Shown piece by piece: positions 4,381-43,474 of a DNA stretch of 64,000 nt. Source of the stretch: Mycolicibacterium sp. (lineage in GTDB: Bacteria > Actinomycetota > Actinomycetes > Mycobacteriales > Mycobacteriaceae). The number at the start of each line of letters is the position of its first letter. Position 1 is the stretch's first letter. The position numbers were made by a program, and so were the translations under genes. Location: contig JACJWN010000003.1 of the NCBI GenBank assembly GCA_020637165.1, positions 372,001-436,000 on the forward strand, in the 5' to 3' direction. The notes under the pieces are model-generated. The model saw nothing but the letters and a program-made list of their open reading frames with translations, had not been told where the DNA came from and did no database searches.

Positions 4381-4391
4381 CCCGACGCCGA

Positions 4392-4397: not shown

Positions 4398-4403
4398 CGT
4401 CCC

Positions 4404-6545: not shown

Positions 6546-6560
6546 CGGGAACAGGCAGCT

Positions 6561-25277: not shown

Positions 25278-28200
25278 ATGAGTCGGCATCCGGCAGAGAT
25301 GGCTGAGTCCGCCGGAGGCCAGGGCGTCTTCGGTTGGATCGGCCATGCCGTGACGCGTCGGCCATTGCTGGTCATCGGGGCGTGGATCGCCCTCGCGATC
25401 CTCTTGGCCCAGATCTTCCCCTCCCTGGCTGTTCTGGCGCAGAAGGCACCCGCTTCCATCCTGCCGCCGAACGCCGCCTCGGTGGTCAGCCAGAAGGAGA
25501 TGGCGGACGCCTTCAAGGAGGCCAGTTCCGACAACATCCTGCTGGTCGTGTTGACCAACGAGAACGGCTTCACCAAAGCCGACGAGGACGTCTACCGCAA
25601 GCTGGTCAGCAAACTTCGCGCCGAGACCGAGGACGTCGCGGCACTGCAGGACTTCGTGAGCACCCCGCCACTGCGCGAGATCCTGGTCAGCAAGGACAAC
25701 AAGGCGTGGCTGCTGCCGGTCAACATCGTCGGTGAGGTGGCCACCCCGAAGGCGATCGCCGCCACCAAGCGCGCCATCCAGACGGTCCGCGACACCGTCG
25801 CCGGCACATCGCTGGAGGCCTTCACCACCGGCCCGGCCGGGACGTTCAACGACATCCAGGACATCGGCGACCGGGACGTGTTCGTCATCGAGACGGCCAC
25901 CATCGTGGCTCTGCTGCTGATCCTGCTGATGGTGTACCGCAATCCACTAACCATGATCCTGCCGCTGATCACGATCGGGGTATCGCTGGCCACGGCACAG
26001 GGTGTGGTGGCCGGACTGGGCACCTTGGGCCTGAGTGTCTCCAACCAGACCATCGTGTTGCTCACCGCGATGCTCGCCGGGGCCGGCACCGACTACGCGG
26101 TGTTTCTGATCAGTCGGTATCACGACTACATTCGCAACGGCGATGACCCCGACAGCGCGGTCCGCAACGCGCTGAATTCGGTCGGGAAGGTCATCACCGC
26201 CTCGGCGGCCACCGTCGCGGTGACCTTCATGGGAATGATCTTCACCAAGCTGACCGTCTTCTACACCGTCGGCATAGCGCTGGCCGCAGCCATCGCGGTC
26301 GGCTGCGCCGGGGCCCTGACCTTCCTGCCCTCGCTACTGACGCTGGCCGGCCGGCGCGGGTGGGCCAAGCCGCGAAAGGACCTGACCAGCCGTTTCTGGA
26401 AGCGCTCCGGCATCCGCATCGTGCGCCGGCCGGTCGCGAACCTGCTGGCCAGCCTGGTAATCCTGGTCATCCTCGCCTCTACCGCAGGTCTGGCGACGTA
26501 CAACTACGACGACCGCAAGGCGTTGCCGCCCAGCAGCGACAGCATCCAGGGCTACGACGCGATCACCCGGCACTTCCCGCTCAACGCGAGCCTTCCGCAG
26601 TACATCCTCATCACCTCACCGCATGACCTGCGCACACCCCAGGCGCTGGCCGATATGGAGCAGATGGCCTACCGGGTCAGCCAGGTACCGGATATCGACA
26701 TCGTTCGCGGCATCACCCGCCCGACCGGGGAATCCCTCCAGCAGGCGCGGCTGTCGTTCCAGGCCGGAGAGGTCGGCAAACCGCTGAACCAGACCTCGAG
26801 CCTGATCAACGGGAACGCAGCCAACCTCGACATGCTTGTCTTCGGCGCCGATCAGATCGCCGACGTCCTGGGCGCCGTGCGCGGCCAACTGGGGCAGACG
26901 GTGGCCACCGTCGGCTACCTGGTGCAGTCGCTGGCGTTCCTGCAGAACCAGTACGGCACCGGCAAGTCGCTGCCGGGATTCGACCCGGGCAGCAACCCGC
27001 TCAACACCATCCACGGCCTCGGCGGCAGCATGGGCGTCAACACCCAGGACGCCATCGAGGCCTACGACACCTCGATCGCCCCGGTTCTCAAAGCCCTCGA
27101 CGGCAACCCGGTTTGCGACGCCGATCCGGAGTGCGTCGCAGCCCGAGGCCGGCTGCAGTTGCTCGCCGAAGCCCGCGAGGACGGCACCCTCAACCAGATC
27201 GCCGACCTCTGCCAGGCGCTCCAGGAAGTCCCGACCGACCCCGCGGCGGCACAGCAGGCGCCGGAGGACCCGACCGCACTGCCGGCCGAGCGGCCGACAA
27301 CGCCCCCGTCGACGTCCACCGAGACGACTCCCCCGCCGACGCAGGGCTCGGAGTCGATCCCCGGAAAAGAGAAGCCGGAACCGGTCACGCGGCTGCCCGG
27401 TACCCGGCCCCCCGGTACGCATGCGGCCGAATCCGCACCTCCGGGCATGGGCCTCGCACTGGATTCGATCGGCCAGAGCCTGGAGGCGGCCGGCATCAAC
27501 GATCCCGCCGATCTGGCGGCTCAACTCAATCTGCTCCAGCAGGGCATCGACATGCTGGCAGTCGCCAGCCGCCAGGTGGCGAACGGCGTCAACCTGCTGG
27601 TGGACCAGACCAAGCGGCTCGGCGTCGGCCTCGAACAGGCCTCGCTGTTCCTGCTGTCGATGAAGAACAATGCCACCACCCCGTCGATGGCCGGCTTCTA
27701 CATCCCGGCCCAAATCCTCACCGGCTCGGAGTTCAGGAAGGCCGCGGCGATCTTCATCTCCGCCGACGGACGCACCGCCCGCTATCTGGTGCAGACCAAA
27801 CTGAACCCGTTCAGCCCCGAGGCGATGGACCAGGTCAACGACGTCCTCGACACAGCCCGCGGAGCGCAGCCCAACACCACCCTCGCCGACGCGTCGATCT
27901 CGATGACCGGACTCACGGTGACCCTGCGCGACACCCGCGACTACTACTACCGCGACCTGAAGCTCATCATCACCACCACCGTCCTGGTGGTGTTCGGGAT
28001 CCTGGTCCTGCTGCTGCGAGCCCTCGTGGCGCCGCTCTACCTCATCGTCTCGGTGGTGATCTCGTATCTGTCCGCCCTGGGGATGGGAGTCGCGCTGTTC
28101 GAGTTACTCCTCGACCAGGAGTTGCACTGGAGCGTGCCCGGGCTGACCTTCATCATCCTGGTCGCCGTGGGCGCCGACTACAACCTGCTGCTGATCTCCC

Positions 28201-28526
28201 GAATACGCGACGAGTCCCCCTACGGCATCAGATCCGGGGTGATCCGGACAGTCACCCAGACCGGCGGTGTGATCACCGCCGCGGGGCTGATTTTCGCGGC
28301 CTCGATGATCGGCCTGCAGTTCTCCAGTATCGGCACGCTGGTGCAGATCGGATTCATCATCGCCGCCGGGATCCTGCTGGATACCTTCCTGGTTCGCACC
28401 ATCACGGTGCCCGCAACGGCAGTGCTGGTCGGCAAGGCCAACTGGTGGCCGTCGAAATGGCAGCCGCCGGCGCCCACCCGAACACCGCGCCAACCCGAGC
28501 CCAGCACGGAGGTCGAGCCGCAATGA
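25278..28526 (+). CDS. MmpL-family RND lipid transporter
   Basis: 1082 residues. MmpL proteins move cell-wall lipids or their precursors across the inner membrane using proton motive force. The layout is typical: TM1 (about 32-52), a first periplasmic loop, TM2-6 with GAGTDYAVFLISRYHDY carrying the Asp-Tyr pair of proton relay, a second large loop (about 420-870), then TM7-12 with AVGADYNLLLISRIRDE, the second Asp-Tyr pair. The second loop contains a disordered Pro/Thr/Glu-rich insert (about 655-720, PTTPPSTSTETTPPPTQ). The C-terminal tail is short and proline-rich. The gene overlaps the glycosyltransferase gene as ATGA. By position it matches mmpL12 of M. tuberculosis; the substrate is probably the lipid made by the facing PKS/PapA arm. 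Confidence 0.93.
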   Translation: MSRHPAEMAESAGGQGVFGWIGHAVTRRPLLVIGAWIALAILLAQIFPSLAVLAQKAPASILPPNAASVVSQKEMADAFKEASSDNILLVVLTNENGFTKADEDVYRKLVSKLRAETEDVAALQDFVSTPPLREILVSKDNKAWLLPVNIVGEVATPKAIAATKRAIQTVRDTVAGTSLEAFTTGPAGTFNDIQDIGDRDVFVIETATIVALLLILLMVYRNPLTMILPLITIGVSLATAQGVVAGLGTLGLSVSNQTIVLLTAMLAGAGTDYAVFLISRYHDYIRNGDDPDSAVRNALNSVGKVITASAATVAVTFMGMIFTKLTVFYTVGIALAAAIAVGCAGALTFLPSLLTLAGRRGWAKPRKDLTSRFWKRSGIRIVRRPVANLLASLVILVILASTAGLATYNYDDRKALPPSSDSIQGYDAITRHFPLNASLPQYILITSPHDLRTPQALADMEQMAYRVSQVPDIDIVRGITRPTGESLQQARLSFQAGEVGKPLNQTSSLINGNAANLDMLVFGADQIADVLGAVRGQLGQTVATVGYLVQSLAFLQNQYGTGKSLPGFDPGSNPLNTIHGLGGSMGVNTQDAIEAYDTSIAPVLKALDGNPVCDADPECVAARGRLQLLAEAREDGTLNQIADLCQALQEVPTDPAAAQQAPEDPTALPAERPTTPPSTSTETTPPPTQGSESIPGKEKPEPVTRLPGTRPPGTHAAESAPPGMGLALDSIGQSLEAAGINDPADLAAQLNLLQQGIDMLAVASRQVANGVNLLVDQTKRLGVGLEQASLFLLSMKNNATTPSMAGFYIPAQILTGSEFRKAAAIFISADGRTARYLVQTKLNPFSPEAMDQVNDVLDTARGAQPNTTLADASISMTGLTVTLRDTRDYYYRDLKLIITTTVLVVFGILVLLLRALVAPLYLIVSVVISYLSALGMGVALFELLLDQELHWSVPGLTFIILVAVGADYNLLLISRIRDESPYGIRSGVIRTVTQTGGVITAAGLIFAASMIGLQFSSIGTLVQIGFIIAAGILLDTFLVRTITVPATAVLVGKANWWPSKWQPPAPTRTPRQPEPSTEVEPQ

Positions 28527-29761
28527 AATACGCCATAGCGGTGCACGGGACGCGCGGGGACGTCGAGCCCGCCGCGGCGGTTGCGCTGGAGTTGATCCGC
28601 CGCGGCCACCAGGTCCGGATGGCCGTACCGCCCAATCTGGTGGGTTTCGCCGAGTCGGCGGGTATCCCGGCGCCGGTGCTGTCCTACGGGCCGGACTCCC
28701 AGCAGCAGCTGGAGGCGGAGGTGTTCAGCGAGTGGTGGAGGCTGCGCAATCCGGCCACCGTGGTGCGGCAGGCCCGGGAGTACGTCACCGAGGGGTGGGC
28801 GCAGATGAGCGAGACCCTCGCCGCCATCGCGGCCGACGCGGATCTCATCCTGACCGGCACCACCTATCAGGAGGTCGCCGCCAACGTTGCCGAGCACCAC
28901 GGGATCCCGTTGGCGGCGCTGCATTACTTCCCGGCCAGGGCCAATTCCAAAATCCTGCCGGTGCCGCTGCCCATGAGCATCGTCCGTCCGGGGTGGGCGG
29001 TGGCGGAGTGGGCACACTGGCGTCTGCTCAAGCCCACCGAGGACGAGCAGCGCCGGACCCTCGGTCTGCCCCGGGCACGACACCGCGCGGTGCGGCGGAT
29101 CGTCGAGAGTGGAGCACTGGAAATCCAGGCATATGACGAGGTGTTCTTTCCCGGCCTGGCCGCCGAGTTGGGCCAGAGCCGCCCTCTGGTGGGCTCGATG
29201 ACCCTGCAACTGCCCGCGGAGGTCGACGACGACGTCTCCGCCTGGGTGGCCGAAGGGACACCGCCGGTCTACTTCGGTTTCGGCAGCATGCCGGTTGACG
29301 ACCCGGGCGAGGCCGTCGCGATGATCAGCGACGTCTCGGCCGAACTCGGCGAGCGAGCCCTGATCTGCTCGGGTGCGCTGGAAATCGGCGGTATCCGGGA
29401 GGCCGCCCACGTGAAGGTCGTCCGCACGGTCAACCACGCGCGGATATTCCCCCGATGCCGCGCCATCGTCCACCACGGCGGTGCCGGCACCACCGCCGCC
29501 AGCGTCCGCTCGGGGGTTCCGACCCTGGTGCTGTGGGTCGGAGCCGACCAGCCGGTGTGGGCAAAGGCCGTCCAGCGCCTGGGGGTCGGCACCTCACGCC
29601 GATTCTCGGCCACTACAGCCAGGTCGCTGCGGGAGGATCTCACGACCGTGCTGTCGGCCAACTGCACCCACACCGCCCGGGAGGTGGCCGCCAGGATGAC
29701 ACCTCCGGCGACCAGCGTGGCACGGGCTGCCGACCTGCTTGAACAGGCGGCCGCGCGGTAG
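28523..29761 (+). CDS. GT1-family glycosyltransferase (UGT/GtfA-like, Rv1524/Rv1526c type)
   Basis: 412 residues with a two-domain GT-B fold. The N-terminal acceptor domain opens MKYAIAVHGTRGDVEPAAAV, the signature of macrolide/GPL-type glycosyltransferases. The donor domain contains PVYFGFGSMPV and the nucleotide-sugar motif IVHHGGAGTTAASVRSGVP, followed by the conserved WVGADQPVWAKAV. No membrane span is present. Related mycobacterial enzymes add single rhamnose, glucose or other deoxyhexose units to glycolipid heads. The donor cannot be read from sequence. It is translationally coupled to mmpL (ATGA), and is the only glycosyltransferase in the locus, so the product probably carries few sugars. 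Confidence 0.92.
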   Translation: MKYAIAVHGTRGDVEPAAAVALELIRRGHQVRMAVPPNLVGFAESAGIPAPVLSYGPDSQQQLEAEVFSEWWRLRNPATVVRQAREYVTEGWAQMSETLAAIAADADLILTGTTYQEVAANVAEHHGIPLAALHYFPARANSKILPVPLPMSIVRPGWAVAEWAHWRLLKPTEDEQRRTLGLPRARHRAVRRIVESGALEIQAYDEVFFPGLAAELGQSRPLVGSMTLQLPAEVDDDVSAWVAEGTPPVYFGFGSMPVDDPGEAVAMISDVSAELGERALICSGALEIGGIREAAHVKVVRTVNHARIFPRCRAIVHHGGAGTTAASVRSGVPTLVLWVGADQPVWAKAVQRLGVGTSRRFSATTARSLREDLTTVLSANCTHTAREVAARMTPPATSVARAADLLEQAAAR

Positions 29762-29771
29762 AGTCGGCGCG

Positions 29772-30491
29772 GTGTGGACGTCCGTGCTGGTGCTAGCCAT
29801 CGCGGTCAACCTGGAGCCGACCCGCATCGGGCTGCTGCCACTGCTGCTCTCCCGCAGACAACCGCTGCTTCAACTCCTGGCCTACCTTGTCGGGAGTCTG
29901 ACGATATCGCTCGGATTCGGACTCGCCGTTCTCTTCGTCTTCGACGAGAGCGTGTTCGGAACCAGCGCTTCCGGTGGCGGCAAAGCGCAGATCGCGGTCG
30001 GTGTGCTGGCTCTGCTGGTCGCCGCGGTGATGGCGGTACGAGGCCTCCGGACACGCCGCGGCAGCGGCGTCCCGTCGACCGTTCCGGCCGATGCCGGCGG
30101 GGACGGACTCGAGGACAGGCCGGCCAGCGCCGTCGACAAGTTCACCGTCGCGGTCCGCCGGATCCTGGGCAAAGGGAGCTCGCCCTGGTTCGCCGGCCTG
30201 GTAGGGGCCGGTACCGGTCTGCCGTCGGTGGACTATCTGGCGGTGCTGTTGATCATCGCCACCTCAGGCAAGCCGCCGGTGGTACAGACCGCCGCCCTGA
30301 TCACCTGCGTCACGGTGAGCAGCCTGGTCATTCTCGGCCCGTTGGTCAGCTATCTGCTGGCCCCGGCGAAAACACTTGCCGCCATCGACCGCTTCAATGC
30401 CTGGACCCGGTCACGCAGCACACTGGAATACGCCGGCCTACTGGCGCTGATCGGATGCCTGCTGATCGGTCTGGGCATCAGCCACCAGTAG
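29772..30491 (+). CDS. GAP-like (glycolipid-addressing) small membrane protein
   Basis: 239 residues with six predicted membrane spans, no catalytic motif. The start VWTSVLVLAIAVNLEPTRIGLLPLLLSRRQP, with the NLEPTRIG sequence, is typical of the GAP/Sap family found beside mmpL genes in glycopeptidolipid and sulfolipid loci, where they assist export of the lipid to the surface. I preferred the GTG 10 nt after the glycosyltransferase stop, because it begins with the family motif; the frame stays open upstream to a TTG inside the preceding gene. A hydrophilic loop (about 95-130) separates two three-helix halves. Third gene of the mmpL operon. Confidence 0.82.
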   Translation: MWTSVLVLAIAVNLEPTRIGLLPLLLSRRQPLLQLLAYLVGSLTISLGFGLAVLFVFDESVFGTSASGGGKAQIAVGVLALLVAAVMAVRGLRTRRGSGVPSTVPADAGGDGLEDRPASAVDKFTVAVRRILGKGSSPWFAGLVGAGTGLPSVDYLAVLLIIATSGKPPVVQTAALITCVTVSSLVILGPLVSYLLAPAKTLAAIDRFNAWTRSRSTLEYAGLLALIGCLLIGLGISHQ

Positions 30492-30574
30492 CCGTCCGGG
30501 CCGTCGGCAGAAGTCCGCCGGACGCAGCATCGACACACGGACCCACTCGACGTGCGTTCTCAGGCGATCTTAAG

Positions 30575-30580
30575 GATAAT
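30575..30580 (+). promoter_or_regulatory. -10 element of the PE-PPE-domain hydrolase gene (GATAAT)
   Basis: GATAAT ends 6 nt before the GTG chosen as start of the hydrolase gene. The 95-nt gap after the GAP-like gene suggests that this gene can be transcribed from its own leaderless promoter. Inferred. Confidence 0.4.
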
Positions 30581-30586
30581 GGCGGG

Positions 30587-31825
30587 GTGTTGCGCGACCG
30601 GTCGGCAAGCGGCGGCGCCGGGCGATGCCCTCGGTGGGTCCGCCGGATGAACGCTGCCGCCCTGGTCTGCTGTGCCGGCGCGGCCACCACCGCTACCGCT
30701 CTCGGCCCGCTTCCGACCATGACGGCGGAGGTCGAACTGCTCGCCGCCGACGCACTGATCATGGCCGGAACCGACATGCCGGTGGTCGATCAGGCGTGGA
30801 TCGACATGGCCGTCGGCAGCTACATCCAGCCGACGCTGGGCGGCCATTACACCGGTGTGCCGGTAGACACCCCGGCACAGTTCTGGCCGTTCACCGGCCC
30901 CGAGGACATGCTCTTCGATACATCCGTAGAAGGCGGCACCGCCGCGATCCGGGCGGCGATCGACGCGGAGACGGACCAGAGCGGCCACTCCTCGCCCACG
31001 GTCGTCTTCGGCTACTCCCAAAGCGCCGTCATCGCGACAGCAGCCAAACGCCGACTGGCCGAATCGGTCTCGACTGAGACCGACGCGCCGGCGGTGTCCT
31101 TTGTGATGCTGGCCAACCTCGACCGCCCCAACGGCGGGATCAATGCCCGCTTCGCCGGAGCCGTCATCGAGGAACTGGGGTGGACCTTCGCCCCGGCGGC
31201 GCCGACGGACACCCCCTTCCCCACCGTGGACGTGGCCCGGCAGTACGACCTGTTCGCCGATTTCCCTCGGTATCCGCTCAACGTGTTCGCCCTGGCCAAC
31301 GCCGTGGTGGCCCTGTTCTACGGGGCGCACGACTACACCGAGGTCACCCTGGACCCCACCGATCCCCGCTACGACCCGGACACCGTCGTCCAGCAGTGGG
31401 GAGACACCACCTACTACTTCATCCCCACCGACACATTGCCGTTGCTGCGACCGCTGCGTGATCTGGGCGCCGACCCTGTGCTGCTCGATGCCGTCGAGCC
31501 GGCGCTGCGGGTGCTCGTCGAGGCCGGCTACGACCGCACCACCCCGTTCGGTCAGCCCGCGCCGGCCGTGGAGACGACCCCGCTCGCCGACGCCGATGAG
31601 CTGAACCGGGAGCTGGCGGATGCCATCGAGCAGGGACGGTCCATCTTGGAGTCCGCAGCGCCGCCGGCTGCCGAGCCGAGCACCGCGGCAGCTGCGCCAC
31701 GGTCCCAGCGAGATGTTGCCGAATCCGACCGGGCCGAACCCGTGCGGGCACCGCGGAGGGCCGAACAGGCACCGCGCACGAGACCCCGTTCGGAACCGTC
31801 GGCCGCTAGTCGATCAGGCCGGTGA
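30587..31825 (+). CDS. Secreted PE-PPE-domain serine alpha/beta hydrolase (Chp1/Chp2-like)
   Basis: 412 residues. A basic stretch (RCPRWVRR) and hydrophobic core (about 21-40) form a signal peptide or anchor. The rest is a PE-PPE-type alpha/beta hydrolase: GGHYTGVPVDTPAQFWPF, the nucleophile elbow FGYSQSAVIA (S144, GxSxS) and a late ARQYDLFADFPRYP segment are family hallmarks. No PE or PPE N-terminal domain is present. Relatives next to papA/mmpL genes (Chp2 for polyacyltrehalose, Chp1 for sulfolipid) act as acyltransferases that finish acyltrehaloses outside the membrane, so a final acyl-transfer step is a reasonable inference. The tail (about 340-412) is Ala/Glu/Arg-rich and disordered. Its last 20 nt are antisense to the facing gene. 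Confidence 0.85.
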   Translation: MLRDRSASGGAGRCPRWVRRMNAAALVCCAGAATTATALGPLPTMTAEVELLAADALIMAGTDMPVVDQAWIDMAVGSYIQPTLGGHYTGVPVDTPAQFWPFTGPEDMLFDTSVEGGTAAIRAAIDAETDQSGHSSPTVVFGYSQSAVIATAAKRRLAESVSTETDAPAVSFVMLANLDRPNGGINARFAGAVIEELGWTFAPAAPTDTPFPTVDVARQYDLFADFPRYPLNVFALANAVVALFYGAHDYTEVTLDPTDPRYDPDTVVQQWGDTTYYFIPTDTLPLLRPLRDLGADPVLLDAVEPALRVLVEAGYDRTTPFGQPAPAVETTPLADADELNRELADAIEQGRSILESAAPPAAEPSTAAAAPRSQRDVAESDRAEPVRAPRRAEQAPRTRPRSEPSAASRSGR

Positions 31826-33209
31826 GCCCGAACTCTTCCAGCGTCCGCTCGGCGAGTTCACGCAGGCTCTGATGGGTGTTCTTCCCACCGAGTTGGTAGG
31901 CCTCCACCGAGATGGAGATCTTGCCGTTGATCCGCCCCGAGACCACCACGAGCTGACCGTGGGAGCGTTCCAGCTCACCGATCGTCACATCGGTGTCCAG
32001 GGCGCGAATGAAGACGTTGTCGGCCGGGGTGCCGTCGACCCTGGCCAGATCCGGCGGCAGGTCGCCCAGGTTGGAGCATGACACCGGCAGATCTTCGGAG
32101 TAGGAGAACAGCAGGTCGGCCACACCTTTGACGGCCTTGCGCGGCAACCACGGAATGAGGGCGAAAAGCTCCATCGTGGGATCCGGCTCGTTTTTGGCCT
32201 TCTCCCGCGCCTCCCGGACGGCGTTACGCGATTCGGTGAGGTCGACGGTGACCTTCTCCGGATCGACGGTCGCGCTCGCGAAGGCCATCGCCAGAGCCCG
32301 GTCGTCGTCGAGGCTTTCCCGCAGGTTGATCGCGATGCTCAAGGTCACCGCGCCGTCCGCGCGTCGCCGCCGGTCCAGGTGCTCGGCGAGTTTGGCCGCG
32401 AAACCGGCCAGCAGCGAATAGCTGTTGCCGCCGAGGGCTGCCGCCTTGGCATCCCACTGGGCCACATCGACGTAAATCGCGACGGAGGGCACGACGACGT
32501 GCTCGCCGTGGGCGGTACTGTCCTGGGCGGCCCGCGCGCGGGCGAAATCCTCGCGCTTGGTGCGGTACATCTTCACGGCGTTGACGGCTGTCCGCACCGT
32601 CAAGGGTACGTCGCGCAGGGCTTGGCGGAGGTCGGCACGGATGGCCTCGCCTCGGGTCCGGGCGCCCGGCTGGTCGTACCCGGGGTTGCGGATGTTGCCG
32701 GTGACGGCCTCGAAGACCGCCATCAGCGCACCGACACCGTCGCCGATGACGTGGGAAGCGACAATGCTGACCGCGGTCGAACCGTCCAGCAGCGGCTGGA
32801 CTGCCAGATGCCAGCCGGGACCGGTTTCGGGGTCGATGGGCAGCTTGGCGAGTTCGTCGGCCCAATCCAGCAGTTCGGCACGCGGCCTGGGCTGTTCGGC
32901 GAAGTGGATCGGCGGCGGGGGGTTCACCGGCCGCACCCAGCGCGGCCGGCCGAACGGCAGCGGCGATCGCTCGATCAACCTGCTTCCCAGCGAGGTATAG
33001 AGATTGTGATGGAAACGCTCGAGGCCCTCACGGTCCAGCGGGCGCTCGTAGACCCACACGCACTGCATCAACTGGTTGCGCCCGGTGGCGCGCATCAGTT
33101 CCAGCGCCGCGTGATCGAGGAACGCCAGCCGATGCTCGTCGGGCAGCTCCCGATCGCCGCGGCGGAACAGCTTTCCGCGCGGATGGGCCTGGGTTGTCAC
33201 CGATTCCAC
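31806..33209 (-). CDS. HxxxDG acyltransferase-like protein (condensation/WS-DGAT-like), tandem copy 1
   Basis: 467 residues. The fold pattern is that of CoA-dependent acyltransferases/condensation domains: FLDHAALELM near the start, and the active-site motif VASHVIGDGVGAL with H153, D157 and G158. Only one His is present, where wax-ester synthase/DGAT proteins have HHxxxDG. A later SCSNLGDLPPDLARVDG segment matches the structural DFGWG/NxGP region of the superfamily. No signal peptide or membrane span is seen. It is the last gene of the pks-papA arm and follows copy 2 by one base. The two copies share LPFGRxRWV, PGWxxxVQP, SCSNxGDLPP and other blocks along their full length, so they arose by duplication. 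The acyl donor and acceptor are unknown. Confidence 0.8.
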   Translation of the reverse strand: MESVTTQAHPRGKLFRRGDRELPDEHRLAFLDHAALELMRATGRNQLMQCVWVYERPLDREGLERFHHNLYTSLGSRLIERSPLPFGRPRWVRPVNPPPPIHFAEQPRPRAELLDWADELAKLPIDPETGPGWHLAVQPLLDGSTAVSIVASHVIGDGVGALMAVFEAVTGNIRNPGYDQPGARTRGEAIRADLRQALRDVPLTVRTAVNAVKMYRTKREDFARARAAQDSTAHGEHVVVPSVAIYVDVAQWDAKAAALGGNSYSLLAGFAAKLAEHLDRRRRADGAVTLSIAINLRESLDDDRALAMAFASATVDPEKVTVDLTESRNAVREAREKAKNEPDPTMELFALIPWLPRKAVKGVADLLFSYSEDLPVSCSNLGDLPPDLARVDGTPADNVFIRALDTDVTIGELERSHGQLVVVSGRINGKISISVEAYQLGGKNTHQSLRELAERTLEEFGLTGLID

Positions 33210-33210
33210 C

Positions 33211-34581
33211 TCACAGAACCTTGCCGGACAGACTGAACTCGTCCAGGGTGCGCAGAACCACCTCGTGCAGATGGCCCTGCGAGTTGTCCCCGTCGGGCTG
33301 ATAGCTGATGACCGTGTTGACGATCTTCCCGCCGACCCGTCCGGATGCCACCGTCATCAGCCCCTGGCGGCGGTCCAGGGTGGCCCGGGTGACCTTGCGG
33401 TCAACGCCCCGGAAGCACAGGTACTCCGCGTCGGTGCCGTCCACCCGCAACACCTCCGGGGGCAGGTCGCCCATATTGGAGCACGAGACCGGGAAGTCGG
33501 TGGAGAACCCGAAGGCCGCGTCGGCCATCCGCGCGATCGCCCCCTTGGGCAGGAACGGGATCAGCGGCAGCAGTTCGATCATCTCGTCGGGCACCGCGCG
33601 GGCCTTCTGCAGCGCCTCGCGGATCGCCCCCCGAACCCCCGTCAGATCGTCGGTGACCCCGGCCGGACCGAAGCTGGTATTGGCCAGGGCGACCACGTTG
33701 CCGCCGGTGTCGAAAATGTCCTCGCGGTCGTTGACCGGGATGATCAGCGTGACGTTGCCGTCAGAGGCCCGGGTCCGCCCGAGATGCTCGGCGACTCGCG
33801 CCGCGAAGGCCGCGACGAGCGAGAAGCTGTTGCCGCCAAGGCTTTCAGCGCGGGCATCCCATTCGCCGGTGTCGACGAACACCGATATCGAGGGAACCTT
33901 CGCAATCTCTCCCCCGCGCGTCGCCGGCGGCAGGGCGGCCCGGCCGCGGGTGACCTCCTCGCGCCGGCTAACCGCCACCCTGACCGCCTTGCGCAGGGTC
34001 CGGCCCACCTCGGGGGCGTCCCGCAGCAGCTGCCGCAGGTCGGCCGCCATCACCCGCAACCGGCTCAGCGACCGCGGCGCTGGATATCCCAGGTCGCGGT
34101 GCATACCCAGGACCGCCTGCACCAAACCGATGACGACCGCCCCACCGTCGGCGATGCAGTGCGAGATGACCAGGCTGACGACGGTCGAGCCGTCGGTGAA
34201 GGGTTGGACCCCGAACCGCCAGCCGGGCCCCCATTGCGGATCCAGCGGTAACTCGACCTGTTCGTCAGCCCAGTCGTGGAGTTCGGCCCGGTCCCGGGGC
34301 GTATCGGAGATCGCCAGTTCGGGCGGCGGTCCGGCCGAAACCCAGCGATGACGGCCGAAAGGCAGCGGGGACGGCTCGATGCGGCGGGCCAGCATGCCAC
34401 GGCCGAAGTCGTGGTGAAACCGCTTGAGGCCGTCGAGGTCGATCGGATGCTCGTAGACCCAGAGCACCTGCATGACGGCCTCCTGGCCGGCGCCGCGCAG
34501 GGCGAGGAACAGCGCTTGGTCCGGGTAGGGCAGGACGTTGTCGACCGGCGTCGACTCCTGCCCCCCGGCCACGACGGTCAA
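33211..34581 (-). CDS. HxxxDG acyltransferase-like protein, tandem copy 2
   Basis: 456 residues, paralogous to the gene that follows it. It has LPYPDQALFLAL at the N terminus, the active-site motif VISHCIADGGAV with H141, D145 and G146, and SCSNMGDLPPEVLRVDG late in the protein. Cytosolic, with no signal peptide. The start is TTG, overlapping the PapA stop as TTGA; a GTG three codons in is an alternative. In position it lies between papA and copy 1, in one operon with the PKS. Such an arrangement suggests that the locus attaches more than one acyl group to its product, with PapA and the two copies each serving a different position. This is inference; neither copy has been matched to a characterised enzyme. 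Confidence 0.8.
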   Translation of the reverse strand: MTVVAGGQESTPVDNVLPYPDQALFLALRGAGQEAVMQVLWVYEHPIDLDGLKRFHHDFGRGMLARRIEPSPLPFGRHRWVSAGPPPELAISDTPRDRAELHDWADEQVELPLDPQWGPGWRFGVQPFTDGSTVVSLVISHCIADGGAVVIGLVQAVLGMHRDLGYPAPRSLSRLRVMAADLRQLLRDAPEVGRTLRKAVRVAVSRREEVTRGRAALPPATRGGEIAKVPSISVFVDTGEWDARAESLGGNSFSLVAAFAARVAEHLGRTRASDGNVTLIIPVNDREDIFDTGGNVVALANTSFGPAGVTDDLTGVRGAIREALQKARAVPDEMIELLPLIPFLPKGAIARMADAAFGFSTDFPVSCSNMGDLPPEVLRVDGTDAEYLCFRGVDRKVTRATLDRRQGLMTVASGRVGGKIVNTVISYQPDGDNSQGHLHEVVLRTLDEFSLSGKVL

Positions 34582-36026
34582 ACCGTCACCCGCGGAATCC
34601 GTGGGGACGACACCGAGTCGGCACGCCCCTCGGCCGCACGCAGAAAGAACATCTTCATCAGGTCGACGTACTGGGCCACCGACTCACGCGCCGCGGCGTT
34701 GTCCGGGTAGGCCACCGTGATGGTGGTCCCGGTGTCACGACGGTTGACCCACATGCCGATCTGGTTAGCCGCCCCGAGGTCGGTGTAGAGCGTGCCGTTC
34801 TGCGCCTGCCATTGGCCCATCACCACCGGGTTCAGCGGCGGCAGCCCGATGTCGAGATAGGACAGCATCGGCACGCCGGGACCCGGTTTGCGGATACCAG
34901 GCACCGACTCGGCGAGTTCGAAGACCCGCTCGATGGGCACATTCGCCAGGTGCATACCCGAGTCGAACGATGCCTGGGCGGCGCGGGCGACCTGTTTGAA
35001 CGTCATGCCCTCCACCGGAACCGAGATCGGCACTATTCCGGTGAACCACCCGGTGGTTGCGAACTCCGCAGGGGTGGCGCGGGTGGTGGTCGGAGTGATC
35101 ACCCGGTAGGTGTCGACCCCGGTCAGCTCACGCTCGGCGAGCGCCGCGCAGGCGAACACACCGCCGATGAACCGCACCCCCGCCGACGCGCACACCGCCT
35201 CGAACCGGTCGCTGTCGTGGGCGTCCATCAGCTTCACCGTGATCAGGTCACCGGTGCAGGGAACATCCGGGTCTCCCAGTGGCAGCGGGAATTTGGGCAG
35301 GGTTCCGCCGTTGCCCTGCAGATACTGCAGCCACTCGCCGACTTCCGGGGAATCCAGGGTCAACCCGGAGGTGTACTCACGCTGTCGGGTGCAGTAGTCG
35401 AGATAACGACCCGCCTCCGGCAACTTGATCGGGGCACCGCCCTCCACCAGCGCCGCGTAGTTCATGTGCAACTCCACGAACAGTCCCACCATGAACATGG
35501 CGTCGGCGTGGACGTGGTCGATGCTGGCGTAGAAGGTGAAGTGGTCGGCGCGCTGGATCACCCCGAAGCGAAAGCAGTCCCATTCCAGCGGGCTCGGAGT
35601 CGCGAGGATGTGCTGGCGCCACTGTCCGGCGTTCATCTCCCCGTGTTTGGTCGCCACGAACGTGATGTCGGAGGGATTGGCAACGGTGTGCCGGATGACC
35701 CGGTCGGACGCGTCGTCGCCCTCGGCGAACTCGAACCAGCTGTGATACGTGTCGTGCCGGCGCAGGTAGGAGTTGATGACGTAGGTCATCGCCCGGATGT
35801 CACACCGCCCCGGGATGTTCCAGGAAGGGATGAGCAACCGGGCCATCTCCAGACCGTTCGCCGAATGCGCACGGTAGGTCCGGATGTGCTGCTCCTGCTG
35901 ATAGCTGGGCGGAACATCACTCACCGCCGCCTGCGCCACCTTGGCCACACAGGACGGCGAAGGTCCCCAGGACACCACGGATCCCGGCGCGTCCACCCAG
36001 TCATGGATTGCCGTCAGCGCAACCAC
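34578..36026 (-). CDS. PapA-type polyketide-associated acyltransferase
   Basis: 482 residues. The opening IHDWVDAPGSVVSWGPSP is characteristic of the PapA1/PapA3/PapA4 group, and the catalytic motif is ASIDHVHADAMF with H171 and D175 (HxxxD). LSYLDIGLPPLNP lies in the region of the superfamily's DFGWG turn. PapA proteins transfer a PKS-made methyl-branched acyl chain to trehalose or a related sugar. The gene starts 34 nt after the PKS, with GGGAG ahead of a GTG, which is the usual pks-papA order. It is cytosolic. By position it corresponds to papA4 beside pks5 in M. tuberculosis. The acceptor is probably trehalose or a glycosylated trehalose, but that is not shown by sequence. Confidence 0.92.
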   Translation of the reverse strand: MVALTAIHDWVDAPGSVVSWGPSPSCVAKVAQAAVSDVPPSYQQEQHIRTYRAHSANGLEMARLLIPSWNIPGRCDIRAMTYVINSYLRRHDTYHSWFEFAEGDDASDRVIRHTVANPSDITFVATKHGEMNAGQWRQHILATPSPLEWDCFRFGVIQRADHFTFYASIDHVHADAMFMVGLFVELHMNYAALVEGGAPIKLPEAGRYLDYCTRQREYTSGLTLDSPEVGEWLQYLQGNGGTLPKFPLPLGDPDVPCTGDLITVKLMDAHDSDRFEAVCASAGVRFIGGVFACAALAERELTGVDTYRVITPTTTRATPAEFATTGWFTGIVPISVPVEGMTFKQVARAAQASFDSGMHLANVPIERVFELAESVPGIRKPGPGVPMLSYLDIGLPPLNPVVMGQWQAQNGTLYTDLGAANQIGMWVNRRDTGTTITVAYPDNAAARESVAQYVDLMKMFFLRAAEGRADSVSSPRIPRVTV

Positions 36027-36060
36027 TAAGTCGCTCCCTATCCGACCCCGTCAGCCCGCC

Positions 36061-39000
36061 TCAGCGGGCTGACGTGAGCACACCAGCCAACGTCTCGCAC
36101 AGGCTCTCGGCCAGCGCCCGAACGGTGGTGATGTCCATGGACCGGACACGGATACCCGTCTCGGTCTCGATCCGGGTGCGCAGCTCGAGGTTGCCCAGCG
36201 AGTCCAAACCATACTCCGAGATCGGCCGATCCGGGTCGATCGACCTGCGCAGGATCAGGCTGAGCTGCTCGGCCACCAGACGCCGGACGCGGGTCGGCCA
36301 CTCCTCCCGGGGCAGTGAATGCAGTTCGGCACGGAAGCTGCTGGTGTCGGCCGGACGGTCGTCGCTGGAGGCGAAGGCCTCGGCGAACGGGCTGCGAGCA
36401 GCCAGGTCCGTCAGCCACGGAGTGCCGATCACCGGTGCGTAGCCGGTGTGGGCGCGGTTGTGGCGCAGCATGGCCTCGAAGGCGTAGGCACCCTCCTCCG
36501 GGCTGATCATCGTGGTGTCGCCGGAGGCCGCGAGGTGACGGCCCGCGCCGATCTGGTCCCATGCCGCCCATGCGATCGCCGTGGCGGGGAGGCCCTGAGC
36601 CCGCCGCCACTGGGTGAAGGCGTCCAGCCAGCTGTTCGCCGCGGCGTAGGCGCCCTGGCCCGGGGATCCGAGCAGTGCCGCCGCCGAGGAGAACGAGCAG
36701 AACCAGTCCAGTGGCTGCGTGGTGGTCGCCCGGTGCAGATGCCAGGCGCCGTACACCTTCGGCGCCCAGTCCCGCTCGACCAGATCGTCGGTGATGTTGG
36801 CGAGGATGGCGTCCTCGACCACCGCGGCCGCATGCAGCACGCCGCGCACCGGTAGACCGCTTGCGGTCGCCTCGGCCACCAGGCGGTCGACGGTCTCCGG
36901 GGAAGCGATGTCGCCGGAGACGACCTCGACCTCGGTTCCGGCCGCGCGCATGCGCTCGATCTCGGCGAGCGCATCGGGCTTGGGCGCCGAACGGGAGTTC
37001 AGCACGATGCGCCCGCACCCGGCCGCCGACATCTTCGCGGCGAGGAACAAGCCGAGACCGCCCAGGCCGCCGGTGACGATGTAGGCGCCGTCGCCGCGGA
37101 ACACCCGTGCCTGCTCGGGCGGCACGACCACCTGGCTGTGGCCGACCCGCGGGACCGACAGGATGAGCTTGCCGGTGTGCTCGGCCGCGCTCATCACCCG
37201 GATCGCGGTGGCGGCCTCGGCCAGCGGGTAGTGCGTGGTCTCCGGCTGCGGCAGATATCCCTCGGTGGTCAACCGGTAGACGGTGTCGAGCAGTTCGCGG
37301 ATCCGTTCCGGATGCGTCGAGCACATCAGGGCAAGGTCGACGCCGTAGAAGGACAGGTTGCGCCGGAACGGGAACAACCCCATGCGGGTGTCGCCGTAGA
37401 TGTCCTTCTTGCCGATCTCGACGAACCGGCCGCCGAAGGCCAGCAGTTCAACACCGGCCCGCTGGGCGGCTCCGGTCAGCGAGTTCAGCACGATGTCGAC
37501 GCCGTAGCCGTCGGTGTCCCGCCGGATCTGCTCGGCGAAGGCCGTGCTGCGGGAGTCGTAGACCCGGCGAATGCCCATCCGGCGCAGCATGTTGCGCCGT
37601 TCCTCGGTGCCGGCCGTGGCATAGATCTCCGCACCGGCCATCCGGGCGATGGCGATCGCCGCCTGACCCACACCACCGGTGGCGGAGTGGATCAGCACCT
37701 TCTCCCCCTCCCGGATCCGGGCCAGGTCCTGCAGTCCGTACCAGGCGGTGGCGGCCGCGGTCGAGACCGCTGCGGCCTGGTCGTCGCGCAGCCCTGCGGG
37801 CAGCGTCACCGCAACGTCGGCGTCGCAGGTGACGAACGTTCCCCAGCAGCCGTTCGGGGACATCCCGCCAACCCGGTCACCGACCCGGTGGGTGCTCACG
37901 TCGGGACCGACCGCGGTGACCACACCGGCGAAGTCGATACCCAGCTGCGGGTTGCCCGCGAAACTCGGGTAGCGGCCCATCGCCACCAGAACGTCGGCGA
38001 AGTTGAGGCTGGAGGCCGTCACGGCCACCTCGATCTGGCCCGGCCCCGGGGCGATCCGCTCGAAGGCGGTCAGCTCCATGGTCTGCAGATCGCCGGGGGT
38101 TCGGATCTCCAGCCGCATGCCCTCGCGCTCGTGATCGACGACGGTGGTGTAGCGCTCGTCCGGGCGCAGCGGGCTCGGGTAGAGGTGGGCGGTGTACCAC
38201 TCCGCGTTGCGGAAGGCGGTCTCGTCCTCCTCCGAGCCGAGCAGCAACTGCTGGGCGACGTAGCGGCCCTCGGTCTGCTCGTCGACGTCGATCTGGGTCG
38301 GCCGCAGATGCGGGTGCTCGGCGCCGATGACGCGCAACAAGCCGCGCAGGCCCGCCTGCTCGAGGTTCGGCCGCTCACCCGGCAGGACCGTCTGGGCCCC
38401 CCGGGTGACGACGTAGAGCCGCGGCGGATCGCCGGCGAGATCGGGCAGATCGCGCACGATACGGACCAGGTGCCGAACGTGGTCACCACCGCGGTAGGCC
38501 AGCTGCTCCTTAGGGCAGCCGTTGCGCGGGGCCTCGACCACGACGACGTTGCTGAACCCCACCTGACCGAAGTAGGCGGTGAGCCGTTCGGCGTTGGCGA
38601 GATGGTCGGCGTGCTGCGGCCAGGACATCGTCGTCACGTCGGCATCGTTGAGCTTGAGCGCGTCGGTCAGTTCGGATGCCAGGATGTCGGTGGTGTCCGA
38701 CGTGCTGACCAGCAGCCAGGTCCCGGCACTGAAGTGGTTGGCCGGCTCGGGCAGTTCCTGCTTGCGCCACTCGACGGCCATCAGCCGCTCGCCCAGCACC
38801 CGGTCGCCCTCGGAACCGCCGGTGCCCATCGACAGACCGTCGACGGCGAGCACCACGTCGCCGTGTTCGTCCAGCAGGTGAATGTCGGCCTCGACGCCGG
38901 ATCCCTCCAGGGAGACGATCCGGGTCAGGCAGTAGCGGGCCTTGTTGGCCGCGCCGAAAGTCCGCAGCCGACGGACTCCGAGCGGGAGCAGCAGGCCACC

Positions 39001-42000
39001 GGTACCGGTGTTCTGCACGCCGGGATGCGCCGCGACCGACTGGAAGCAGGCGTCCAGCAGCGCCGGGTGCACACCATAGGCGCTGTGCTGACCCCGGATC
39101 ACCGTCGGCAGACCGATCTCGGCCAGGACGGTGTCGGAGGGGGCGCCGCTGCCGTCCTCACCGGCGTTGACCGCGACCAGCGCGGTGAACGCCGGCCCGA
39201 ACTGCACGCCGCGGGTGTCGAACCAGTGCCGGACGTCGCCACCGTCGGCCCGGTGCGGATGCTCGGCCCGCAGGGCGTCGACGTCATAGGACCCGGGCCG
39301 GTCGCCGGCCTCGGCACCCTGGCACACCGCCAGCACTGCGCTCGCCCGGCGCTCACGCTCGCCGTCCTGGTCGGTCTCGACCAGGAAGTCCAACGTTCCG
39401 TCGCTCTGCGCGGAGGCTGTCGCGCTGACCTGGGTCTCGTCTTCGAGCAGCAGCATCCGCTCGAAGCGGATGTCGCGAACCTCGGCTTCGTCGCCGAGCG
39501 CGGCCCGGGCGGCGGACATCGCCATCTCGCAGAACGCTGCGCCCGGCATCGCCGGCACGTTGTTGACCTGATGGTCGACCAGCCACGGCAGCGCGGCCGT
39601 GCCGACCTCGGCGGCCCAGACATGGCGCTCCGGTTCCTCGAGGAGCCGCACGTGTGAGCCCAGCAGCGGATGGGCAGCCACCAGATGGGCACCCCGTCCG
39701 GTCTCGGCGGACTGCGCCTGCAGCATCAGCGCCCGGTGGGTCCAGGTCGGCAGCGGCGCCTCGACGAGGCGGCCGGACGGCAGCATCGCCGCGAAGTCGA
39801 CCAGCGCACCTGCGGCATAGAGATCGGCGACCAGCGTCCGCAGGCCGTGCGGCATCTCCTGGCCGCGACGCATACCGGCGATCGCCGCCACCGGGATGTC
39901 AAGGGTCGCAGCGGTCTGGTCGACCGGCCGGGTCAGTAGCGGGTGCGGCGACAGCTCGGCGAAGACCCGGAAGCCGTCCTCGAGGGCGGCCTGCACGGCC
40001 GCGGAGAAGCGGACGGTGTGCCGCAGGTTGTCGATCCAGTAATCGACATCGCAATAGGGCTGCTCACGCGGGTCGAACAGCGTCGCGGAGTAGTACGGAA
40101 ACTCCGGTGCCAGCGGGGTGATGTCGTCGAGCATCTCGGCCAGCTCGTCGAGGATGGGCTCCACCTGCGGAGTGTGGGAGGCCACGTCCACGGCGACCTC
40201 GCGGGCCATGATCTCCTGCTGCTCCCACTCGGCGACGATCTGCCGGACCGTCTCGGTGCTGCCGCCGATGACGGTCGACTTCGGCGAGGCGACCACCGCA
40301 ACGACGACGTCCTCGACGCCGCGCCGCTCCAGTTCCTCACGCACCTTCTGCGCGGGCAGCTCCACGGCGGCCATCGCACCGCCGCCGGCGATCTTCAGGC
40401 ACAGCAGCGAGCGGCGGCAGATCACCTTGACGCCGTCCTCCAGCGACAGTGCACCCGAGACCACCGCCGCGGCGACCTCGCCGAGCGAGTGACCGATGAC
40501 CGCGCCCGGGGTCACCCCGTAGGACTTCATCGTCGCGGCCATCGCGACCTGCATCGCGAAGATGGTCGGCTGGACGCGGTGGATTCCGGTCACCGTCTCC
40601 GGCGCCAGCATTGCCTCGGTCACCGAGAAGTCGGACTCGGCGGCGATCAGGGGCTCGAGTTCTGCGATCTTCGCCGCGAAAACGGGCTCGCCGGCGAGCA
40701 GTTCCGCGCCCATGGAGGCCCACTGCGAACCCTGACCGGAGAACACCCACACCGGGCCGCGGTCGTCCTGTCCGACGGCGGCCGGGTACGGCTCGTCACC
40801 GTCGGCGATTGCCCGCAGACCCTCGACCAGAGCGGACCGGTCGGCGGCGATGACCGCCGACCGCGCCGGCCGGTGGCCGCGCCGCCGGGACAGAGTGAAG
40901 GCCAGATCTCCCAGATCCGGCTCGGCGCCCGGATTCTCGACCCACTCGGCCAGACGGCTCGCGGTGCGCCGCAGTTCCCCGGCCGACGTCGAGGAAACCG
41001 GGAAGACCAGTTCCCCGCCGGCCGGGGCCGTTTCCACGGAGTCGGCGACAAAGTCGGACATGGAGGGTTCCGGCGCCTGTTCGAGCACGACGTGCACGTT
41101 GGTGCCCGACATGCCGTAGGAGGAGACGCCCGCGCGGCGCGGGGCCACGCTCTCGTCCACCGGCCAGGCGGTGGTTTCCTGCGGAACGAAAAGCCCGGTC
41201 TCGATCCTGGCCAGATGGTCGGGCAGACGGTTGAAGTGCAGGTTCCGGGGAACGACGCCGTTGTGGACCGACAGCACGGCCTTCATCAGGCCGAGCACGC
41301 CGGCCGCGGACTCGGCGTGGCCGAAGTTGCTCTTGACCGAGGTGAGCGCACAACGTCCGTCGTGGCCGTAGACCGTCGAGACACTGTTGAACTCGATGGT
41401 GTCGCCGACCGGGGTCCCCGTACCGTGGCCCTCGACCATGCCGACGGTGGCGGGGTCGACCCCGGCGTTGGCGAGAGCGGCCCGGAACACCGCGACCTGG
41501 GCGTCCTCGGAGGGGGTCAGGATGTTCTCGGTGCGGCCGTCCTGGTTGGAGGCGGTCCCGCGGATGACCGCGAGCACCCGGTCACCGTCGCGCTGGGCGT
41601 CGTCGAGCCGCTTGAGCATGACGATGCCGCAGCCCTCGGCCCGCACGAAGCCATCGGCCTCGACGTCGAAGGCGTGGCAGCGGCCGGTGGCAGAGAGCAT
41701 GCCCTGCCCGGACGCCGACGCGTAGAGACGCTGGTCGAGCATGAGCATCACACCGCCGGCCAGCGCCATATCGCTCTCGCCCTCGTGCAGACTGCGGCAG
41801 GCCTGGTGCACCGCGACCATGCTCGACGAGCAGGCCGTGTCCATCGTCAGCGCCGGACCGTGCAGACCCAGCGCGTGCGAGATCCGGCCGGAAGCCATGC
41901 TGAACGGGTTACCGGTGAACGCGTAGGCCTGATCGAAGGCGCCCGCGTCGCTGGTGACCATGGCGTAGTCGTCATGGGACATGCCGATGAACACGCCCGT

Positions 42001-42411
42001 AGACGTTCCCGCCATCGACGACGGGGTGCGCCCGGCATGCTCGACGGCCTCCCAGGCGGTTTCCAGCAGCACGCGATGTTGGGGGTCCATCGCCGTGGCC
42101 TCGCGCTCGTTGATGCCGAAGAAGTCCGGGTCGAAACCGGTGACGTCGTCGAGGAAGGCGCCCCACTTCGACACCGAGCGGCCGGCGACACCGGGCTCGG
42201 GATCGAAGTTCTCCTCGGCGTCCCAGCGGTCGCGGGGAATCTCGGTCACGAGGTCTTCGCCCCGCAGTAGTGCCTCCCAGAGCTTGCGGGGAGAGTCGAT
42301 ACCGCCTGGGAGTCGGCAGGCCATACCGACTACGGCGATTGGGGTCATCGAGGATTCGCGCACGTCGTTCACACCTCGTTCTTCGTCGATGCGGGGCAAG
42401 TTGTTTCTCAC
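36061..42411 (-). CDS. Pks5/Mas-type iterative polyketide synthase (KS-AT-DH-ER-KR-ACP)
   Basis: 2116 residues. A single fully reducing module of the mycocerosic-acid-synthase type that elongates a fatty acyl primer. KS: C194 in DTACSSS, H329 in EGHGTGT, H365 in SNFGH. AT: S642 in GHSLGE, and VASH (743-746), the form linked with methylmalonyl-CoA. DH: H947 in [13 protein letters not shown], where Asn replaces the usual Gly of HxxxGxxxxP, with the partner Asp in [40 protein letters not shown] and [15 protein letters not shown]2071 in [10 protein letters not shown]. There is no thioesterase, so release depends on PapA. The GTG start may be replaced by a GTG 13 codons in. The product is probably a short methyl-branched fatty acid, as for LOS-type Pks5. 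Confidence 0.94.
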
Positions 42412-43474
42412 TGCCAGGCGTGCCGCGAGTTCTCAGATGTGAGGCGCGCCGTTGCGTCGACATCAACCCGAAGTAGCCAGAACTGTGCGTAGCTTAACCC
42501 GGCCCAGACAGAAAAGCCAGACTAAGTTTCTGCTCAGAATTACGCCCCCGACGAAACTCGACGGTCTTGCGGGCAATCCCCCACACCGGAGGGGAATGAG
42601 TTAGCTGACAACCGGCCGCCAGATAGCGGCGATGATCGCCCGATGGAGTCGAGAGGTGACGAAAAGTCACACCGGGCCGGGTAAATGCACAGTTCAGATC
42701 GGTTCCATTCCTCAGCGGCCGCCGGTCGCTACGCCGGTTGCCCGCCGAGCGGACACCCCGAACCCGATCGGGGCGAAGGTTGCCGCGGCATTTTCAGCAG
42801 GAATTTGTCAAAAATCGCCCTCTCAGCCGCTACAGCAAATTTCTATTAAAAGCTTTTTCCCGGCCATAACATCGACCCCGGCAAACCGCCAGAAGCATTG
42901 GCCGAACTTCCCGAAACAGGGACCCGGCCGGCGTAGCAACCGAGCTCGTACCCCCGTAGATGCTGAGAGATTCCGCTATCCACCTAAGAAGACTGACAAC
43001 GCTCCAACCTGCAATTTGAAGTTGTTCCTCAGCCCACGGGCAACTTACCTGAGAGCAGCCTGAGACACCTGAATGTATGCCCATAAGCGCCGCCCATGCA
43101 TTCCACAAGGCCACTTAACGATTGCTACTTATCCCCTATCACGGCATAGCTCATCCCTGTCTGGCAACACTTTTGTAGTCAATCTCCGGGCTATTCATTA
43201 CCAATTTGTAATTTTTCACTGAGAACCGGACCAGATGACGGTCTGCGACCTATCTCACGTCGATAAACAAGCAAAAATTCACCCAACCGAGCGGTTAGCT
43301 GATGTTAGCCAGATCACTACCCGCCCCCATGGCTTCAGCCGCAATCCGGCATCTCTGGGCCCCAGGAAACCTTCCCTGCGGGCGGAAAAAACATCTCCGA
43401 GAGCGAAATCGCGGGTGGACAATCCGGCGCGCCGCCGGTCCGAAGCCCCATCCGGGGGCGAACCGGCCGGAAAA
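42412..43474. other. 1.06-kb AT-rich intergenic region upstream of the PKS operon
   Basis: No convincing gene. Base composition falls to about 50% GC between roughly 42780 and 43300, against about 67% around it. Two open frames (42632-43063 + and 42830-43114 -) lack start context, family resemblance and mycobacterial codon bias. On the minus strand, TAAGCT (42491-42496) and TAGTCT (42520-42525) are candidate -10 hexamers for the PKS operon, giving a leader of about 70-110 nt. AT-rich tracts such as TTCTATTAAAAGCTTTTT (42841) and TTTGTAATTTTTCA (43204) are the kind of site the xenogeneic silencer Lsr2 prefers. No repeat ends or transposase remnants were found. Confidence 0.6.

Follow-up and report, generated by a model that had tools for sequence, protein, structure and literature searches.

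A probable reduced, mosaic lipooligosaccharide-type locus in a Mycolicibacterium genome

Gene content and organization of the locus

We analyzed a 64,000-nucleotide stretch of Mycolicibacterium sp. DNA (hereafter the window; positions 372,001 to 436,000 of contig JACJWN010000003.1, assembly GCA_020637165.1), which contains an eight-gene locus predicted to direct the synthesis and export of an acylated glycolipid. The window genome (G000) is a 3.85-Mb draft assembly, which its relatives place in Mycobacterium as GTDB defines that genus. All eight open reading frames (ORFs) are intact and form two facing arms, with mmpL, a GT1 glycosyltransferase gene, sap and chp on the plus strand and the polyketide synthase (PKS) gene pks, papA, acylA and acylB on the minus strand (Table 1). 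The genes are tightly packed: mmpL and the GT1 gene share an ATGA, and the 3' ends of chp and acylB converge with an overlap of about 20 bp, the true start of chp probably lying downstream of position 30488. The eight genes and their two-armed, facing orientation had been claimed in an earlier sequence-only reading and are borne out by ORF calls and Pfam domains; the membrane protein labeled GAP-like in that reading is a Sap-type (sulfolipid-1-addressing) protein by its SfLAP match.

Table 1. Features of the locus and its upstream region (window coordinates).
Feature	Position	Strand	Description
mmpL	25278..28526	+	RND-type lipid exporter, 1082 amino acids, Pro-rich loop; Pfam MMPL, two stretches
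GT1 glycosyltransferase	28523..29761	+	412 amino acids; Pfam EryCIII-like_C and Glyco_transf_28
Sap/SfLAP membrane protein	29772..30491	+	239 amino acids; Pfam SfLAP, E 6.7e-40
chp, PE-PPE domain serine hydrolase/acyltransferase (Chp type)	30488..31825	+	Pfam PE-PPE, E 5.4e-64; nucleophile motif GYSQS
acylB, WS/DGAT-like acyltransferase	31806..33209	-	HVIGDG at residue 153
acylA, WS/DGAT-like acyltransferase	33211..34581	-	HCIADG at residue 141; 47% identity to acylB
papA, trehalose-type polyketide-associated acyltransferase	34578..36026	-	Pfam Condensation; HX3DX14Y at residue 171
pks, MAS-like iterative PKS	36061..42411	-	2116 amino acids; KS-AT-DH-ER-KR-ACP (Pfam)
AT-rich stretch, lipL to pks	42412..43474		1063 bp, GC 0.57; holds the lowest-GC kilobase of the window
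Tandem direct repeat TCTCAGG-CTGC-TCTCAGG	43048..43065	-	Putative OmpR/PhoP-type response-regulator box

The PKS is the only MAS-like enzyme encoded in the window genome, where the remaining PKS matches reach merely 35-41% identity. Pattern searches recovered its KS, AT, KR, ER and ACP motifs; the sole match to a strict DH pattern fell outside the DH region, but Pfam nevertheless detects this domain. The top NCBIfam model was sulfolipid-1 phthioceranic acid synthase (3598 bits, against a cut-off of 2400), a name that we did not adopt because other MAS-like enzymes may pass this model too. Among solved structures, PapA has its best relative in M. tuberculosis PapA2 (PDB 6AEF), and it carries the HX3DX14Y motif that marks trehalose PapAs. 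In a tree of 57 PapA sequences, it falls together with the PapA of the smegmatis-clade genome G485 in a 35-row group (support 99/98), while a second PapA of the window genome lies apart and groups with the PapAs of genomes G164 and G214. A third papA-like gene (42% identity) is found at C23:946364-947758 of the window genome, with only a 30% PE-PPE similarity nearby (L153).

Relationship to the lipooligosaccharide island of smegmatis-clade genomes

All eight gene families of the window locus, plus fadD and a GT2 gene, occur together within about 25 kb in the smegmatis-clade genomes G485 and G218. The two islands place pks, papA, acylA, acylB, fadD and GT2 on one strand and sap, the PE-PPE gene and GT1 on the other; mmpL lies past GT1, again on the strand of pks. 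They share with the window locus the gene order pks-papA-acylA-acylB, a single MAS-like PKS in the stretches analyzed and an AT-rich 800 bp upstream of pks (GC 0.58-0.59 versus 0.68-0.69). The window PKS is 63% identical to that of G485 over its full length (2113 aligned positions), and the GT1 proteins are 62% identical.

These islands can be connected to lipooligosaccharide (LOS) synthesis in M. smegmatis. The ER stretch of PDB entry 5BP4 is 96% identical to the PKS genes of G218 and G485. A0R1E8 is named as an M. smegmatis MAS-like PKS and 5BP4, separately, as a MAS-like PKS; we take both to be the product of MSMEG_4727. Deletion of MSMEG_4727 is described as abolishing the extra glycolipid spot of an M. 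smegmatis lsr2 mutant, and an Lsr2 binding site is placed upstream of this gene (PMC8125055). In G485, the island examined in this respect, a pyruvyl transferase gene and two methyltransferase genes lie between the PE-PPE gene and GT1, in agreement with the pyruvylated LOS of M. smegmatis that is named in titles cited in PMC7261415. The island type of G485 and G218 is the LOS producer in M. smegmatis. Judging by the gene count in G485, its sap and PE-PPE genes would be MSMEG_4733 and MSMEG_4734, and by gene order the counterparts of acylA and acylB would be MSMEG_4729 and MSMEG_4730. The latter two are named nowhere in the literature searched and were removed within a block deletion described in PMC11139207.

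The window locus differs from the M. smegmatis LOS island (the MSMEG_4727-4737 region) in that it lacks FadD, GT2, the pyruvyl transferase and the two methyltransferases, and encodes an MmpL of a different clade. In addition, the fetched stretches of G485 and G218 show no lipL, meaB or ileS next to the island. The presence of all eight families in this island led us to reject the proposal of the sequence-only reading that the locus is a candidate for an undescribed system. The unusual features are the reduction of the window locus and its mosaic export arm.

A fixed pks arm and a variable facing arm

To place the locus among its relatives, we scanned species genomes with an acylB alignment and kept the best 80 (L031-L110) of 324 confirmed relatives; the search covered acyl-bearing loci only, pks-papA loci without an acyl gene being outside its reach. 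A forward papA was present in 66 of the 80 loci, and 65 of these had at least two tandem acyl genes after it (two in 60, three in 5), a count biased upward by retrieval with an acyl query, which supplies one acyl gene per locus by construction. The exception, L031, is a 90% relative without acylA. The acyltransferase pair, termed extra in the sequence-only reading, is accordingly a standard part of the operon.

The window locus is flanked by ileS, dinX and ansA on one side and by lipL, meaB, mutB and mutA on the other, all named from their translations alone, and the pks5 region of M. tuberculosis presumably lies at the same genomic place. Among relatives, pks is followed by papA in 62 loci, 39 of which retain at least one window flank (ileS only in 25, lipL or meaB only in 12, both in 2), while the other 23 have neither in the sequence stretch available. 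L101, L102 and L106 show other neighbors at the expected flank position.

The 27 loci with both pks and ileS reveal how the two arms differ. All 27 carry papA, acylA and acylB, while sap and GT1 are each found in 20, mmpL in 8, fadD in 7 and chp in none. The facing arm takes the form sap-GT1 without mmpL in 15 loci, sap and mmpL without GT1 in 4, sap-GT1-mmpL in 1, fadD-acylC-GT1 in 4 and fadD-mmpL in 3. These counts indicate a constant pks arm opposite a variable one. By sequence comparison, then, the pks-papA-acylA-acylB core is widespread and ordinary among mycobacteria, and not undescribed. The facing order mmpL-GT1-sap-chp was seen again in one genome fragment (L135, genome G352); chp adjoins acylB in L136 (G268), and there is a partial match in L033.

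The facing arms of relatives also contain genes of other kinds. In L031 (3053-7334), two sap genes surround a gene for a 427-amino-acid hydrophobic protein with no Pfam match, replacing GT1 and chp. Loci with sap-GT1 and no mmpL have genes of about 244, 134 and 231 codons between GT1 and ileS (e.g. L042:13431-15287); the three L042 genes had no Pfam match, and the 244-codon gene is present in 21 of the 27 pks-ileS loci. A large protein of about 1200 amino acids with GSDH and PKD domains is encoded in L032 (11395-15000) and L061 (13671-17327). Parts of the locus also occur in metagenome bins L033, L038, L040 and L098, whose labels, Bifidobacterium breve or Gemmatimonadetes, are probably wrong.

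The acylA/acylB pair stems from an old duplication

Neither acylA nor acylB was assigned to a Pfam family at E ≤ 0.001, and the score of acylA against the WS/DGAT model (E 0.00037) lay far under the cut-off of that model. For profile work we used an alignment of 64 family members, made up of both window proteins and a further 62 rows out of 157. At E ≤ 0.01, TIGR02946 was matched by 48 of the 64 (best 8e-10) and PF03007 by 30 (best 2.1e-7); the window acylB matches neither at this threshold. Both window proteins carry the HxxxDG motif, as do 164 of the 168 sequences of the family tree; the four rows without it come from L062, L077, L084 and L087. We also considered the pair as kin of PapA and discarded the idea, as profile-profile comparison was not significant (probability 0.17%). 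Searches of PDB profiles gave no match with a 5-row acyl alignment and marginal ones with the 64-row alignment.

In the 168-row tree, 68 rows form an acylB clade (SH-aLRT 98) that includes the second-position genes of the window, the smegmatis-clade genomes, M. houstonense and others. First-position (acylA) genes fall outside this clade in several groups under midpoint rooting, and the pair therefore derives from an old rather than a recent duplication. The age of this split, as judged from the tree, is a new result here. The pairwise identities follow the same pattern, with acylB 52% identical to the G485 acylB and 48% to its acylA, and acylA 51% identical to the G485 acylA and 49% to its acylB. 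Proteins of the acylA type are common in the genus, being found in 310 of 396 genomes at E ≤ 1e-60.

Further paralogs exist. A third gene, acylC, is present in the pks arm of L062, L065, L067, L071, L079, L090 and others, often after fadD. The window genome has an additional acylA-like gene (40% identity to acylB) at C23:533160-534515, beside which no other locus gene was found (L123).

The upstream region is AT-rich and carries a conserved tandem repeat

Low GC upstream of pks is shared by most relatives. Of 52 upstream stretches, taken to lipL or, where lipL is absent, up to 800 bp regardless of content, 49 have a GC below 0.60, with values of 0.65-0.68 in L102, L106 and L109. By analogy, this low GC would fit Lsr2 silencing as in M. 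smegmatis.

The tandem repeat is located upstream of pks, about 620 bp from the called start. The window genome has a single match to TCTCAG-N5-TCTCAGG and none to the reversed control. Within the window, TCTCAG-N5-TCTCAG has one match at up to 2 mismatches, which is exact, where shuffled sequences give 3.5 loose matches. The 1,468,103 bases of L031-L110 contain 19 exact matches, all of them upstream of pks, at 564-655 bp from its called start. Mean column conservation over 17 non-redundant rows is 0.91 in the core versus 0.53 and 0.61 in the flanks, a difference favored by the choice of rows for likeness to the window element. No such repeat was found in L041 or L044, nor in the upstream stretches examined from smegmatis-clade and houstonense-like loci.

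PhoP is described as binding a pair of 7-bp direct repeats whose 4-bp spacing is strict, with TCACAGC in the crystal (PMC4832192). The window element has this form, with two 7-bp repeats, a 4-bp spacer and agreement with TCACAGC at 5 of 7 letters in each repeat. In M. tuberculosis, the region upstream of pks2 is also known to hold mapped PhoP sites (PMC3413638). The repeat, unusually well conserved within part of the lineage, thus resembles a PhoP/OmpR-type box, a candidate regulatory element that is new here. MprA was considered as an alternative regulator and set aside, as the C. glutamicum motif given in PMC12113857 does not fit the window repeat; no mycobacterial MprA motif was found in the literature searched. 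An Rfam scan of window positions 20000-50000 returned no RNA element at the gathering threshold.

Comparison with known systems and alternative explanations

Three features of a LOS locus are present in the window: a MAS-like PKS that is homologous to the LOS PKS and shares its operon setting, a trehalose-type PapA beside it (by its motif and its grouping with the G485 PapA) and a glycosyltransferase for the glycan, in the form of one GT1. The LOS loci of M. marinum and M. kansasii (pks5/pks5.1, papA4, mmpL12) follow the same logic of MAS-like PKS, PapA, MmpL and glycosyltransferase; the window locus differs, in a comparison made by descriptions only, in having one PKS and one glycosyltransferase. 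LOS loci are described with a pap gene between two pks5 genes that lie close together (PMC7261415), and that of M. marinum with about 40 genes (PMC13354803), whereas the window, like the smegmatis-clade stretches, has a single MAS-like PKS. M. houstonense, a LOS producer according to PMC7261415, lends weakened support, since its PKS frame is interrupted at 2786-5184 of L079 (pieces 3-2786, 3596-5173 and 5184-8408).

Several observations weigh against a LOS-type assignment. In a 34-row tree, the window MmpL shares a clade of 15 rows (98/98) with its counterpart from a separate trehalose polyphleate (TPP)-like locus of its own genome, outside the 18-row clade (100/100) that holds the exporters of the smegmatis-clade islands and M. 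houstonense; as this tree is midpoint-rooted and its TPP-like row is long, either clade may be the newcomer. The history of the export gene therefore differs from that of the acyl core. Sap and Chp are only 30% and 38% identical to their G485 counterparts. Chp is missing from all 27 pks-to-ileS loci, and its ortholog in genome G335 (68%) is on a different contig (L134), with none of the searched locus genes within 18 kb; Chp may therefore lie outside the pathway. PE-PPE genes are in any case common (181 of 248 genomes at E ≤ 1e-30). GT1 is absent from 7 of the 27 loci, the acylA/acylB pairing rests on margins of 2-5 points, and the acyl proteins cannot be linked to PapA by profile comparison. 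Finally, the locus has no FadD, the nearest being in the TPP-like locus on contig C27; this FadD, 52% identical to that of the L067 locus, could act in trans for the window PKS.

Some of these points would suit a non-glycosylated polyacyltrehalose locus akin to those for diacyl- and polyacyltrehalose (DAT/PAT) or sulfolipid (SL), in which MmpL, Sap and Chp form an export and remodeling arm and GT1 is incidental. The window MmpL clusters with the TPP-like MmpL and with those of L076, L077, L084 and L101, in whose available stretches no GT1 was found; Sap and PE-PPE proteins, as their Pfam names suggest, are partners in SL/PAT-type systems; and 4 of the 7 pks-to-ileS loci without GT1 have sap and mmpL. 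The SL-1 and DAT/PAT loci of M. tuberculosis likewise combine Sap, a Chp-type hydrolase, MmpL and a PapA with HX3DX14Y. The window locus adds to these a GT1 and the acyl pair and, among its eight proteins, a Pfam scan found no sulfotransferase and no FadD. Moreover, GT1 overlaps mmpL, shares 62% identity with the GT1 of the G485 island and is found in 20 of the 27 loci, mmpL being missing at this place in 19 of the 20. We therefore regard this explanation as unlikely. That the window holds the TPP locus of the organism is far less likely still: PKS, PapA, MmpL and PE-PPE are common to both, but the TPP cluster as described (Pks, PapA3, MmpL10, FadD23 and PE; PMC10465359) includes neither a glycosyltransferase nor an acyl pair, and the window locus has no FadD and a single-module MAS-like PKS. 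A separate TPP-like locus is present on C27, with fadD, sap, a 30% PE-PPE similarity, mmpL, a 3704-amino-acid PKS frame and the papA of the other tree group; the G164 stretch is also a TPP-like locus, with no ileS or lipL within 75 kb. A glycopeptidolipid locus was rejected, as no AMP-binding domain occurs in the eight proteins and the lone Condensation match is the free-standing PapA.

The absence of FadD and of the glycan genes of the G485 island could instead mean that a larger LOS island has been decaying here and no longer makes a working product, in line with the absence of acylA from the nearest relative, L031, and of mmpL from 19 of the 27 loci. However, all eight frames are intact, the PKS has its KS, AT, KR, ER and ACP motifs, relatives conserve the upstream box, and short forms that recur in many species look like a stable state, making decay improbable.

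With the gene families and motifs, the conservation of the operon, its homology to the LOS-type island and the conserved repeat in hand, we conclude that the window most probably holds a reduced, mosaic LOS-type (glycosylated acyltrehalose) locus, with a LOS-like acyl core and an acyltrehalose-like export arm. It is filed as a reduced mosaic variant and not as a full LOS locus because it has one pks gene and an exporter from another clade.

Proposed pathway

For this LOS-type locus, the substrates, acylated positions, order of steps, export and regulation can be predicted from the gene families. The MAS-like PKS would extend a fatty acyl starter, activated by a FadD in trans, with methylmalonyl units to give methyl-branched chains. 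PapA would load one chain onto trehalose, acylA and acylB would acylate further hydroxyls, and GT1 would add one hexose in the cytosol. MmpL would then export the lipid with Sap, proposed as its partner by analogy with SL-1, and the Chp-type PE-PPE enzyme would shuttle acyl chains between molecules outside the cell, giving a more acylated final lipid. The AT-rich upstream region may hold expression down, and a response regulator acting on the tandem repeat may switch it. With one GT1 among the eight genes and no second glycosyltransferase by Pfam, the product is probably a polyacylated trehalose with one added sugar. The gene content thus agrees with the three kinds of acyltransferase of the sequence-only reading and with its lipid that is multiply acylated, carries few sugars and is probably based on trehalose, but not with its suggestion that the lipid matches no named family.

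A more specific version of this model, which we advance tentatively, is that the locus is a true hybrid. In such a hybrid, a LOS-type core (PKS, PapA, acylA, acylB, GT1) joined to an acyltrehalose arm (MmpL of the other clade, Sap, Chp) might yield an undescribed mono-glycosylated, hyperacylated trehalose, with acylA and acylB setting distinct positions and a PhoP-type regulator switching the locus at a lineage-wide repeat.

Implications

The M. smegmatis LOS island is described as altering colony form and phage adsorption (PMC8125055, PMC11139207), and the short locus described here may represent a minimal set of genes for a LOS-type lipid. It also points to two unstudied acyltransferases, the putative counterparts of MSMEG_4729 and MSMEG_4730, and its conserved repeat bears on whether PhoP-type control reaches the LOS-type loci of environmental species.

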